Of a stretch of DNA of 64,000 nt, positions 46,693-62,777 are shown piece after piece. The notes below the pieces were generated by a model that did not search any database, was not told the DNA's origin, and saw nothing but the letters and a program-made list of their open reading frames with translations. The DNA comes from Opeltia flavorubescens (Eukaryota; Ascomycota; Lecanoromycetes; Teloschistales; Teloschistaceae), in NCBI GenBank assembly GCA_000442125.1, contig KE546976.1:496001-560000 (forward strand), written 5' to 3'. Made by a program: the position numbers and the translations under genes. Every line of letters starts with the position of its first letter. The first letter of the stretch is position 1.

Positions 46693-47810
46693 ATGGCGCA
46701 AGCAGAGTCATCTTCCGCAGCTTCTAGTCGAACTCATATAGCAAAGGCCAATGGCTCCTCTGCAGCCTACGACCTTCCCTGGTAACATTATCCTTAAAGC
46801 CAACCCTCATCTCGCACTCACTGCTAACAGCCCTGCCTCAAAGGGTCGAGAAATACCGCCCCGTCTTCCTCGACGACATTGTTGGCAATGTCGAGACTAT
46901 CGAGCGCCTGAAAATCATCGCCAAAGATGGCAACATGCCCCATATGATTATTTCTGGCATGCCGGGGATCGGTAAAACAACCTCCATCCTCTGCCTCGCC
47001 CGCCAGCTCCTCGGCCCGCACGCATACAAAGAAGCAGTCCTTGAACTCAATGCTTCCGACGAGCGGGGTATCGACGTCGTTCGGGGACGCATTAAGGGGT
47101 TTGCTCAGAAAAAGGTCACTCTGCCTCAGGGAAGGCAGAAATTGGTTATCCTAGACGAGGCTGATAGTATGACGAGCGGAGCGCAGCAGGCGCTGAGGCG
47201 GACGATGGAGATCTACAGCTCGACTACCAGATTCGCGTTCGCGTGTAATCAGAGCAACAAGATTATCGAGCCGTTGCAGTCGCGATGTGCAATATTGCGG
47301 TACTCGAGACTAACAGACGAGCAAGTGGTGCAGAGGTTGATGGCGATTACGAAAGCGGAGGATGTAAAGTATAGTGACGATGGGATTGCAGCGTTGGTGT
47401 TCTCTGCCGAGGGAGATATGAGGCAGGCGATCAACAACCTGCAGTCTACGGCTGCTGGTTTTGGGTTCGTAAGTGGAGAAAATGTGTTCAAGGTGGTGGA
47501 TTCGCCGCATCCGATTAAGGTGCAGGCAATGGTCAAGGCGTGCTGGGAGTGTAAGGTGGAACAAGCGATGGAGGGGCTAGAGGAGCTGTGGGGGTTGGGG
47601 TATAGCTGTCATGATATCGTGAGTACGATGTTTAAAGTGACGAAGTCAGCGCCGGGTTTGAGTGAGCACGCAAGACTTGAGTTCATCAAGGAAATCGGAT
47701 TTTGCCATATGCGGATACTGGATGGGGTGCAGACGCTGGTGCAACTGGGAGGATGCGTGGCGAAGCTTTGCAAAATCAACATGAAGCCTGAACTTTTTGT
47801 TCCCCCGTAA
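46693..47810 (+). CDS. RFC4: Replication factor C subunit 4 (clamp loader)
   Basis: AAA+ clamp-loader subunit (yeast Rfc4, human RFC2) that helps load PCNA at primer ends (family knowledge). Exons are 46693-46781 and 46844-47810, giving 351 aa. The N-terminus has [19 protein letters not shown]. Walker A is [10 protein letters not shown]; Walker B is VILDEADSM; the RFC-box SRC motif appears in [13 protein letters not shown]. Sensor 2 region is [14 protein letters not shown]. The intron splits the Trp codon of LPW and has a TGCTAAC branch site. The 5' half is C-rich and the 3' half G-rich on the coding strand. Tandem after the SGNH hydrolase, 154 bp away. Confidence 0.97.
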
Positions 47811-57446: not shown

Positions 57447-59529
57447 ATGGCGTTTCGGAGCCCGGTACTATGGTGCTGGGGACATAGTCCTCGTGTGAGG
57501 TCAACAAGGGACCGGTGCTTTCGTGCTTTCGCCACAATCGCCGAAGTTGCTAGGTCTCGTTCCACTCCCATTAATTCCACCAATATTGCCCGCTTATTCA
57601 GTCCTTAGACCTTACGATGTGTGTGTTATCGGTGGTGGTCATGCTGGAACAGAGGCTTCCGCTGCTGCGGCTCGCTCTGGCGCGCGAACAGCCCTCGTTA
57701 CTCCCTCGTTGTCCAATCTTGGTGTATGCTCTTGCAACCCTTCCTTTGGCGGTATTGGAAAAGGTACAATGATTCGCGAAATCGACGCACTCGATGGCCT
57801 ATGCGGAAGGATCGTCGATAAAGCTGGTGTGCATTTTCGCATCCTAAATAGGAAGAAAGGACCTGCTGTATGGGGACCACGAGCCCAGATTGACCGGGAA
57901 CTCTATCAAAAGGAAATGAAGGCAGAGATCATGGCGACCAAGAATTTGGAAGTTCTAGAGGATAAAGTGGCAGACATTGTGACGCAGAAGGATCACACGA
58001 CGGGTCAAAGAAGTGTTGCGGGCATCAGACTGGAATCAGGAGTGGTCCTCAACTGTGACAAAGTTATTATCACGACTGGGACTTTTCTAGGTGGTGAGAT
58101 ACACATCGGTCTAGACGTTTTCCCGAGCGGGAGAATGGGAGAGGCTGCGACCTTCGGACTGAGCAAGTCCCTCAGAGAGGCAGGGNTTCAGCTTGGGAGA
58201 TTGAAAACTGGAACCCCGCCCAGGCTCGATAGGAAAACAATTGACTTCTCAAAGTTGGAGGTGCAACCAGGCGAAGTCCGTCCTGTCCCTTTCTCCTACC
58301 TTAATGAAAAGGTGGCTGTGGAGGAGCAGCTTCATTGCTACAGCACGCAGACAAACCCAGCCGCCCATGAGATTATCCGAGCAAATCTCGATAAGAGCAT
58401 ACATATCCGGGAGAGTGTGAAGGGCCCGCGATATTGCCCGTCGCTCGAAGCCAAGATCATTCGCTTCGGACATCGGGAGAATCACATCATCTGGCTCGAG
58501 CCCGAAGGTTTCAATACCGATATCATCTATCCTAATGGTATCTCGATGACCGTTCCAGCAGCCGCTCAAGAAGAAATGCTACAAAGAATCACCGGTCTGG
58601 AGAACGTTAGAATGCTTCAGCCTGGCTATGGAGTAGAATACGACTATGTCGACCCCCGCAATCTACGGTCAACACTCGAGACAAAGCTCATATCAGGACT
58701 ATACTTGGCAGGGCAGATCAACGGTACGACGGGATACGAAGAAGCGGCTGCCCAAGGCATTGTAGCCGGCATCAACGCCGGGCTAGCAGCTCAGGGTAAA
58801 GAAGAGTTGACGATCAGTAGAAGTGACGGGTACATTGGGATCATGATTGATGACCTCATAACAAAAGGAGTCAGTGAACCGTACCGCATGTTTACTTCCC
58901 GCAGCGAGTATCGCATGAGCGCTCGTGCAGACAACGCAGATTCGCGGCTGACAACAAAAGGCCGGAAAGCGGGGATCGTTAGCGACAAGCGCTGGAAGAC
59001 TTTCAAGGATACCGTTGTAGGCATGGAAAAATTACGAGCACTTCTCGAAGACACGATCTTCAAGGCCAGCGAATGGAATTCCGCGGGTTTTCCAGTGGGT
59101 TCAGAAACACGTCCTCACTCAGCATACGACATGTTACGAAAGAGCTTTTCGATTGAGTCCTTGCTTCTGCATATCTCTTCGACCTCGTCATTCTCGCCGG
59201 ACGTCCGGAATCGGGTCAGCATCGAAAGTGTTTATGCCCCGTACGTCAAGCAGCAGGAGGCGCAAATCAGCATCTTCGAACGCGACGAGCAGCTGAAGCT
59301 ACCTGTTGACTTGGATTACAGCAAGATCCATGGATTAAGCGCTGGAGAGCGAGAAGTTTTGGAAGTGGCGAGACCTGAAAGTGTAGGTATGGCGCGTCGA
59401 TGCGAAGGAGTCACACCTTCAGGCGCCCTCAGACTTCTGGCTTTTGTACGAGGCGCGAAGCCAGCAGATCGACAAGAAGCAATGATGGAAGAATTGGAGA
59501 CTAGAAAAGAGCAGTATGCCGGCCTATGA
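57447..59529 (+). CDS. MTO1: Mitochondrial tRNA 5-taurino/carboxymethyl-aminomethyluridine enzyme Mto1 (GidA/MnmG)
   Basis: FAD-dependent subunit of the MnmEG complex that modifies wobble uridine of mitochondrial tRNAs (family knowledge). Exons are 57447-57553 and 57609-59529, giving 675 aa. Exon 1 encodes an Arg/Ser-rich presequence ([18 protein letters not shown]) suited to mitochondrial import. The intron joins to [18 protein letters not shown], the FAD-binding fold. GidA signatures follow: [40 protein letters not shown] and [16 protein letters not shown], plus [17 protein letters not shown]. One base is N at 58186, making one residue ambiguous before QLGRLKTG. The donor GTCTCG is weak, but phase and the presequence support it. 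Confidence 0.95.
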
Positions 59530-61844: not shown

Positions 61845-62630
61845 GAACGAGGCAAGGTCAGTTGGCGTACGGGTTCCGTTTGCATGAGGCTCGGGCCCAC
61901 ACAAGGTCGACTCATTGAGCAGTCCTCATCATTATCAGCATCCCGTCACATCACCCGTGTCACGTATATCAGGGATGGAAAAGTTTCATTTGTTTCTATG
62001 AGGTAATGAACGGACCAGGTGGCCGGGCGCTTGGGGGAGAGAGACGCATTCATTTGCTCATTCTGGCATTTGTGATACCACGGGTCTCTGACCCATTGCA
62101 GGCGTTGCATCTCTGGTTCGGAAGATAATGACCACAAGCACCATGGTGGCGAAAAAAGTTCAAGCGAGCAATCAAACAGAAAAACTTGCCAGGCCAGGAA
62201 CAGTGCATAGCTGCACTACCAATTTCCCTTGTGCAATCTTGCAGTGTGCAGTGATCGGCAGCTTACCTTGTATGCAAGCTGCAATATCCCGTTTCTATCA
62301 AGTCCACAGAAGAGGTAATTATCCGAGTAACTCTCAACATCCTTAATGACCATTCGAAGCAAATGTATTTATAAATGATGCTTCAGAAATTGATGGGCGG
62401 GTTTTGGTCAAAATAACAATACGTCAGATATCAGCATTATATGCCCGGTAAGGGGCTGTCTTTTGGGCTAGCGAATAGCTCGTCGCGGCAGCTCCATTAG
62501 GGAACATAGTAGACATTAGAGTAGCGTAAGCAGAATATGATCCCCGGTTGAAATAGGGAATGCAGTACATCCTAGAAGCGAAGAAACAACTCAAGATAAT
62601 ATAAGATCTTAAAATTCTTCCTCTATTATG
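61845..62630. other. Intergenic DUF3602 gene to tRNA-Gly
   Basis: No coding support. It becomes AT-rich just before the tRNA gene (62600-62630), as is common upstream of Pol III genes. Confidence 0.4.
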
Positions 62631-62758
62631 CATCAATAGTTCAGGGGTTAGAATTCGAGCTTCCCATGCTCGAGAGCGGGGGTAAGTGCTTCTTCAGTCC
62701 AATATGATTGGAGTGCACGTCTAACATTACCATTAAGTTCGAGTCCCCGTTGATGCAA
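62631..62758 (+). tRNA. tRNA-Gly(CCC) interrupted in the T-arm by a 56-nt intron-like insert
   Basis: The cloverleaf reads: acceptor GCATCAA (62631-62637) pairing perfectly with TTGATGC (62751-62757), discriminator A at 62758. D-stem is GTTC/GAAT. Anticodon stem CGAGC/GCTCG closes the 7-nt loop TTCCCAT, anticodon CCC at 62664-62666. Variable region AGAG. The T-stem halves are CGGGG (62678-62682) and CCCCG (62746-62750) with T-loop TTCGAGT (62739-62745), but 62683-62738 lies between the 5' T-stem and the loop. Removing it leaves a normal 72-nt tRNA-Gly. The anticodon loop has no intron at the usual 37/38 site. A-box TAGTTCAGGGG and B-box-like GTTCGAGTCC remain, and T5 runs follow. GET4 begins 232 bp downstream. 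Confidence 0.88.
62683..62738 (+). other. Spliceosomal-type intron inside tRNA-Gly(CCC)
   Basis: 56 nt beginning GTAAGT and ending AAG, with a CTAAC branch-site match at 62722-62726, 12 nt before the intron end. These are the donor, branch and acceptor features of protein-coding introns in this window, and the length is typical. It also folds: TCCAAT/ATTGGA with an ATG loop (62699-62713), enclosed by GTGC/GCAC. No run of four T occurs inside, so Pol III could read through. Confidence 0.75.
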
Positions 62759-62766
62759 AAAATATA

Positions 62767-62777
62767 TTTTTGTTTTT
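62767..62777 (+). terminator. Pol III terminator of tRNA-Gly
   Basis: Two TTTTT runs (62767-62771 and 62773-62777) 9-19 nt after the discriminator base, the usual Pol III stop signal. They support the tRNA reading as a transcribed gene. Confidence 0.8.

Follow-up and report, generated by a model that had tools for sequence, protein, structure and literature searches.

The splicing of tRNAs and the splicing of mRNAs are taught as separate systems, and spliceosomal introns in the ribosomal DNA (rDNA) of lichen fungi were reportedly described by Bhattacharya et al. in 2000. According to passages of PMC8527467, the rDNA of lichen fungi contains ectopic spliceosomal introns that are removed from the rRNA, and yeast spliced one such intron out of Pol I transcripts; the word "tRNA" does not occur anywhere in that paper. 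As far as these passages describe them, the rDNA introns resemble the inserts reported here in being short, of mRNA type, and placed in structural RNAs of lichen fungi that are not made by Pol II, whereas the interrupted molecule is rRNA transcribed by Pol I in the one case and tRNA, presumably transcribed by Pol III, in the other. The lichen rDNA is a strong precedent for removal by the spliceosome.

A second group of comparable introns is found in the U3 and U6 genes of fungi, and according to passages of PMC5832005 frequent interruption by an intron is known among small structured RNAs for U3 and U6 only; tRNA is not named there. Like the tRNA inserts, these introns are spliceosomal and lie inside small structured RNAs, U6 being itself a Pol III transcript. 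However, U6 is interrupted in the fungi treated in these passages but uninterrupted in the present genome, whose U6 gene and nine full-length 5S genes are all without inserts, so Pol III genes as a class have not been invaded.

Ectopic introns within tRNA genes proper are described from Cyanidioschyzon merolae and archaea (passages of PMC9602550 and PMC8450103), where, as here, introns in the D and T arms, including position 53/54, occur together with anticodon introns. The archaeal ectopic introns follow bulge-helix-bulge motifs in these accounts, whereas the inserts studied here carry splice-site and branch consensus sequences; in PMC9602550, the only occurrence of "spliceosom" is in the reference list. 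A portion of the tRNAscan-SE 2.0 paper describes the search for noncanonical introns for archaeal tRNAs. Canonical introns at position 37/38 likewise interrupt nuclear tRNA genes and are common in the present genome, but they occupy another position, measure 6-41 nt here (odd long-insert loci apart), and none of eight anticodon introns from intact genes, trimmed by hand, has GT..AG ends.

An interrupted tRNA-Gly(CCC) gene

The window, i.e. the whole stretch of 64,000 nucleotides that was analysed, corresponds to positions 496001-560000 of contig C12 in a 34.4-Mb assembly of 23 contigs. Its replication factor C (RFC) gene (46935-47810) shares 96-97% identity with the genes of Gallowayella concinna and Caloplaca ligustica. 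Gallowayella is a genus of the Teloschistaceae (Lecanoromycetes), and the DNA thus very probably comes from a lichen-forming member of this family. Near the end of the window lies a tRNA-Gly(CCC) gene with the following features, read from the sequence except where other evidence is given in brackets:

62630-62757, + strand: whole tRNA-Gly(CCC) gene, interrupted at 53/54
62630-62681, + strand: exon 1, nt 1-53, from the 5' strand of the acceptor stem to the 5' strand of the T stem (also ARAGORN on the joined exons; sole match of the mature tRNA in its own genome)
62682-62737, + strand: spliceosome-type intron of 56 nt between nt 53 and 54, GTAAGT...CTAAC...AAG (the sole removal, give or take a one-base shift, that restores a strict cloverleaf)
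62682-62687, + strand: 5' splice site GTAAGT
62721-62725, + strand: branch-site motif CTAAC, branch A 13 nt from the 3' end of the intron
62735-62737, + strand: 3' splice site AAG (an AAG end also occurs in an RFC4 mRNA intron of the window)
62738-62757, + strand: exon 2, from the T loop to the discriminator A (exon 62738-62756, discriminator A at 62757)
62637-62647, + strand: A box of the internal promoter, TAGTTCAGGGG (consensus match)
62736-62746, + strand: B box of the internal promoter, AGTTCGAGTCC (consensus match, one departure from GGTTCGANTCC)
62767-62777, + strand: T-runs (TTTTTGTTTTT), likely Pol III terminator
62600-62609, + strand: candidate TATA-like element, 30 nt upstream of the mature 5' end

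The promoter matches refer to A-box and B-box consensus sequences that we take as given; the first two bases of the B box are at the same time the last two bases of the intron. Once the exons are joined, ARAGORN reports a tRNA-Gly(CCC) whose stems have 7, 4 (one G-T), 5 and 5 pairs, and the gene has a cloverleaf, the anticodon CCC and an internal promoter; the unspliced gene is missed both by ARAGORN and by Rfam at the gathering threshold. The first-pass annotation had likewise seen a full tRNA-Gly(CCC) only after removal of the insert; its coordinates were one base off and are corrected above, and the architecture and the 56-nt length that it gave are retained. It had also pointed to the GTAAGT, CTAAC and AAG signals, all of which are present, to a length like that of mRNA introns, which agrees with eight of the nine mRNA introns of the window (45-62 nt), and to a site away from the canonical position 37/38, the boundary being at 53/54. 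No group I or group II self-splicing core was found in the window by Rfam at the gathering threshold, the insert itself being only 56 nt long.

Two neighbours of the tRNA gene may be mentioned. A gene of the MnmG/GidA family (Pfam GIDA; window 57523-59529), i.e. of a tRNA-modification enzyme, is situated 3 kb from the tRNA, probably by coincidence. From 62991 onward, a likely protein start (MTSAKIQKTIARQQEK...) follows the tRNA at a distance of about 230 bases downstream, with the same orientation; a stop comes after about 48 codons, so the gene is probably interrupted by introns. Its product is presumably GET4-like.

The latter gene raises the question whether the insert could be an intron of a Pol II transcript, e.g. 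in the 5' UTR of this very gene, whose overlap with the tRNA would then be accidental. The same-strand protein start at a short distance would be compatible with this; however, the ends of the insert fall exactly where the cloverleaf is restored, and the same arrangement recurs at eleven other tRNA loci (see below), and we regard such a coincidence as extremely improbable.

Eleven further split tRNA genes

We searched the genome for B boxes and read all 81 places with AGTTCGANYCC, which yielded Gly alone, as well as 94 of the 115 places with GGTTCGANYCC, ten of them at already known tRNA or U6 genes. The latter set gave Lys(CTT), Asp(GTC), Arg(TCT), Arg(CCT), Glu(CTC), Leu(AAG), Ile(AAT), Val(AAC), and His(GTG). 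Six tRNA family matches were located below the cut-off, one of which is the Lys gene; the other five were all read, and two of them are split genes for Arg(CCG) and Trp(CCA). From each of these eleven further genes the right tRNA is obtained only once an insert of 48-58 nt is removed. Since it was an intact B box that led to most of the loci, intron sites inside the T loop are under-sampled. As read from the genome, at least twelve tRNA genes of this fungus carry introns of mRNA type.

The insert sites are scattered over the molecule: in the acceptor stem between nt 4 and 5 (His), in the variable loop (Ile), in the T stem at 52/53 (Lys) and 53/54 (Gly), and in the D arm in eight genes (Asp, Trp, the three Arg, Glu, Leu, and Val). 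An anticodon intron is additionally present in 10 of the 12 split genes. ARAGORN identified all twelve spliced forms as the named tRNA and none of the unspliced genes correctly, seven being missed and five misread: Arg(TCT) was taken for Asp, Glu for Met, and Leu for Val, and in Arg(CCT) and Ile the intron was misplaced. The Ile gene depends on a GC-AG reading, its unspliced form being reported by ARAGORN as Ile(AAT) with a 56-nt anticodon intron. In Gly and in Lys, the bare, unmodified sequence has a minimum-energy fold other than the cloverleaf; in Trp, this fold is a cloverleaf.

The tRNA genes read without such an insert number 31, comprising 28 genes (two of them odd long-insert loci) plus L157, L178, and L186; further Rfam matches lie above the cut-off, mostly low-scoring 81-nt copies. 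These 81-nt tRNA-like matches (G000:C1:2791187-2794247, C10:31494-32671, C4:29492-29572, and C20:1181-2386; L010 was read), several of them near contig ends, have the appearance of a tRNA-like repeat that is dispersed or subtelomeric. Three weak matches to tRNA (L196, L197, L199), situated in very A+T-rich DNA, resemble mutated repeats. Among the unusual loci, L031:1347-2707 (G000:C1:405193 to about 406553) contains four tandem tRNA-Ser-like genes with anticodon-loop inserts of about 92-97 nt, which ARAGORN calls Gly or Asn and which possibly have long anticodon introns or are pseudogenes, and in the tRNA-like gene at L013:151-331 (G000:C2:1269032-1269212), about 110 nt of G+C-rich sequence are inserted close to the anticodon.

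Cloverleaf scan and chance controls

In a strict cloverleaf scan, any stretch of 38-130 nt could be removed irrespective of its letters; the scan covered 481 TTCRANYC regions from the window and the extracted loci, some of them overlapping copies, with at least 20 bases required downstream. A strict reading, intact or split, was obtained in 42 of the 481 real regions compared to 1, 1, 1, 0, and 0 of 481 when the upstream part was shuffled. It appeared only after a removal in 23 regions. Twelve of these belong to split genes and represent eleven genes (Lys twice; Val, for which there was no strict reading, is absent), six hold intact tRNAs that the strict rule for unsplit genes does not accept (L003, L005, L008, L027 and L048, which are one gene, and L186), and five are odd long-insert loci (L013, L029, and three in L031).

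At the Gly locus, the scan found exactly one mature form with two equivalent boundaries, GG-AA or GT-AG. Boundaries in the D arm are loose, with 20-53 mature forms for each of the seven D-arm genes that have a strict reading, and the ends were chosen there such that GT-AG was obeyed and a normal D loop or acceptor stem was kept. The twelve inserts as finally delimited comprise eleven with GT-AG and one with GC-AG ends, and this is the sole such reading in seven of the eleven genes with a strict reading (Gly, Lys, Asp, Arg(TCT), Glu, Leu, and Arg(CCG)). The remaining four (Arg(CCT), Ile, His, and Trp) have 2-4 GT/GC-AG readings each, of which the chosen one has a G at +5 and the others do not.

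In a simpler dinucleotide control, ARAGORN reported tRNAs in 21 of 146 regions for GT..AG vs. 16 to 21 regions for five other dinucleotide pairs; since this control did not discriminate, it was replaced by the strict scan. From the 21 GT..AG regions of this first screen, ten were kept, corresponding to nine genes (Gly, Lys twice, Asp, Arg(TCT), Arg(CCT), Glu, Leu, Ile, and His). The eleven dropped regions are L157, a Leu(CAA) gene whose anticodon intron measures 41 nt, the Ser-like cluster in four copies (L034), L069 (identical with the long-insert locus L013), L035 and L056 (the intact genes L018 and L005), and L037, L155 and L170, in which the cloverleaf was not credible by eye; an unsplit ARAGORN call in L037 was likewise not counted as a gene.

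The similar ARAGORN yield of the five other pairs is what would be expected if the split genes were a search artefact, i.e. if, given enough GT..AG pairs, some removal always produced a tRNA. The strict scan, with at most one reading among 481 shuffled regions, argues against this, as do the +5 G and the branch motif, which were no part of the search criteria and yet occur in six and four, respectively, of the seven genes in which no choice of ends was involved (the motif as CTRAY). We therefore give an artefact practically no credence.

Splice signals and likeness to mRNA introns

A G at +5 is present in 11 of the 12 inserts, the exception being Arg(CCG) (P = 2.2e-6 at 25% G and 3e-9 at the inserts' own G content), although this count is partly a matter of choice because the inserts of Arg(CCT), Ile, His and Trp were picked among alternatives. 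A CTRAY motif with its A 8-20 nt from the end occurs in eight of the twelve, compared to a mean of 0.89 in shuffled inserts, with none of 20,000 shuffles reaching eight, and it is absent from the reverse complements of all twelve. The four inserts without an exact CTRAY have TTAAC (Glu), TTGAC or TTGAT (Leu), or none of these (Val and Arg(CCG)). For comparison, we mapped nine mRNA introns in the actin, RFC4, VPS45 and CSE1 genes of the window by spliced alignment; eight are 45-62 nt long and one measures 141 nt, +5 G is found in six, CTRAY in seven, and an AAG end in one. The insert lengths of 48-58 nt are in line with these introns. In their ends, +5 G, branch motif and length, the inserts thus have the characteristics of U2-type spliceosomal introns, and we infer that the spliceosome removes them from the tRNA precursors.

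The main competing view of their removal is that these are ectopic tRNA introns like those of Cyanidioschyzon merolae and archaea, with the tRNA splicing endonuclease making the cuts and tRNA ligase doing the joining. The tRNA-Ile(UAU) of C. merolae has, according to a passage of PMC9602550, an intron at the very same 53/54 site, and the frequent anticodon introns of the split genes (10/12) would also be in keeping with endonuclease action; such cleavage, however, leaves the GT-AG ends, the +5 G, the branch motif and the mRNA-like length unexplained. A full 4-bp central helix of the bulge-helix-bulge type is seen in one of the twelve inserts and in one of eight anticodon-intron controls, so the test did not separate the known anticodon introns from the inserts and was not used. 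We consider endonuclease removal quite improbable.

Before splicing, 11 of the 12 genes already have a consensus A box (His has none by that consensus); in the D-arm cases, a G of the intron itself completes the A box, so that it exists before splicing. This fits genes that need to be readable by Pol III while the intron is still there, though the GT ends create much of the A box automatically. As to the origin of the inserts, we considered a mobile "introner" and rejected it: each of the twelve matches only itself in the genome, and a recent repeat family is thus not supported.

Intact copies and the possible need for the split genes

A BLAST search of the mature tRNA-Gly(CCC) against its own genome matches this locus alone, and a tRNA-Gly(CCC) anticodon-arm pattern with up to two mismatches occurs once in the genome (controls, 0). 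The first-pass annotation had proposed a check for other intact copies, and none was thus found by BLAST or by the pattern. BLAST of nine other spliced forms returned their own exons only, except for Ile(AAT), which has one intact relative (L019) and one truncated relative; a close intact copy is accordingly absent for nine of the ten genes subjected to BLAST (all of the twelve but Arg(CCG) and Trp). No other Asp, His or Trp gene was present among the tRNAs read. A BLAST search with 13 fungal tRNAs gave no match in the genome, a result that carries no weight because seeding needs near-identical words. A covariance model of the 3' part of tRNA found nothing in the window. At L194 (G000:C13:176640-176870), we observed a truncated 5' half of a tRNA-Ile with an anticodon intron and no T arm in the stretch read.

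These results bear on the possibility that the split genes are dead, silent or assembly errors and that intact copies do the work. Hidden intact copies are conceivable because the RF00005 search passed over some intact genes (L178, L186, and L157), because 94 of the 115 GG-type B-box places and 3 of 29 of another set were read, and because isodecoders can diverge in this genome, as in the two Gly(GCC) genes L027 and L186. Yet the stems and invariant bases of the split genes are kept, the pattern is repeated in twelve genes, among them the only Asp, His and Trp genes found, and BLAST of ten of them brought up a close intact copy for Ile alone. For Gly, the dead gene that had been offered as an alternative in the first-pass annotation is weakened by the lack of a second copy in the BLAST and pattern searches and by the pairing of all arms. 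We judge dead genes to be very improbable as an explanation, and infer that the product of tRNA-Gly(CCC) is functional. We lean, with some reserve, towards the view that the spliceosome is an essential tRNA-processing machine in this fungus: all twelve genes, among them the sole ones found for Asp, His and Trp, would become readable only through spliceosomal splicing, in most cases combined with endonuclease splicing of the same molecule.

Proposed route of processing

We propose, with a probability of roughly 0.86, that the tRNA-Gly(CCC) gene is a working one into which a U2-type spliceosomal intron was inserted at 53/54, and that the spliceosome removes this intron. The locus is best read as having a spliceosome-type intron in its T arm, as initially suggested, and this is far better supported than at first thought because eleven further tRNA genes show the same kind of insert. 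RNA polymerase III would transcribe the gene from its internal A and B boxes, GUAAGU and CUAAC would be recognised by U1 and U2, and the 56 nt would leave as a lariat via the spliceosome, presumably in the nucleus. The T arm could form only after the intron has been removed, and end processing, modification and export would follow. The same route would be taken by at least eleven other tRNA genes. Ten of these have a normal anticodon intron as well, which the tRNA endonuclease would remove, and two splicing systems would thus act on their precursors.

Our literature search was confined to open PMC papers; among the matches listed, there was no earlier report of spliceosomal introns in nuclear tRNA genes. 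This suggests spliceosomal introns in a class of RNA for which no earlier report was found.

If this reading is true, spliceosomal introns in fungal tRNA genes would link the two splicing systems and show that tRNA precursors can be substrates of the spliceosome. The failure of tRNA finders at such genes (seven of twelve missed and five misread by ARAGORN) would also be explained, and the gain of introns in a structured RNA would become directly observable. The translation of whole amino acids would then hang on the capacity for pre-mRNA splicing, and the split genes suggest that the machinery which edits mRNAs may also be needed for making the tRNAs of this lichen fungus.
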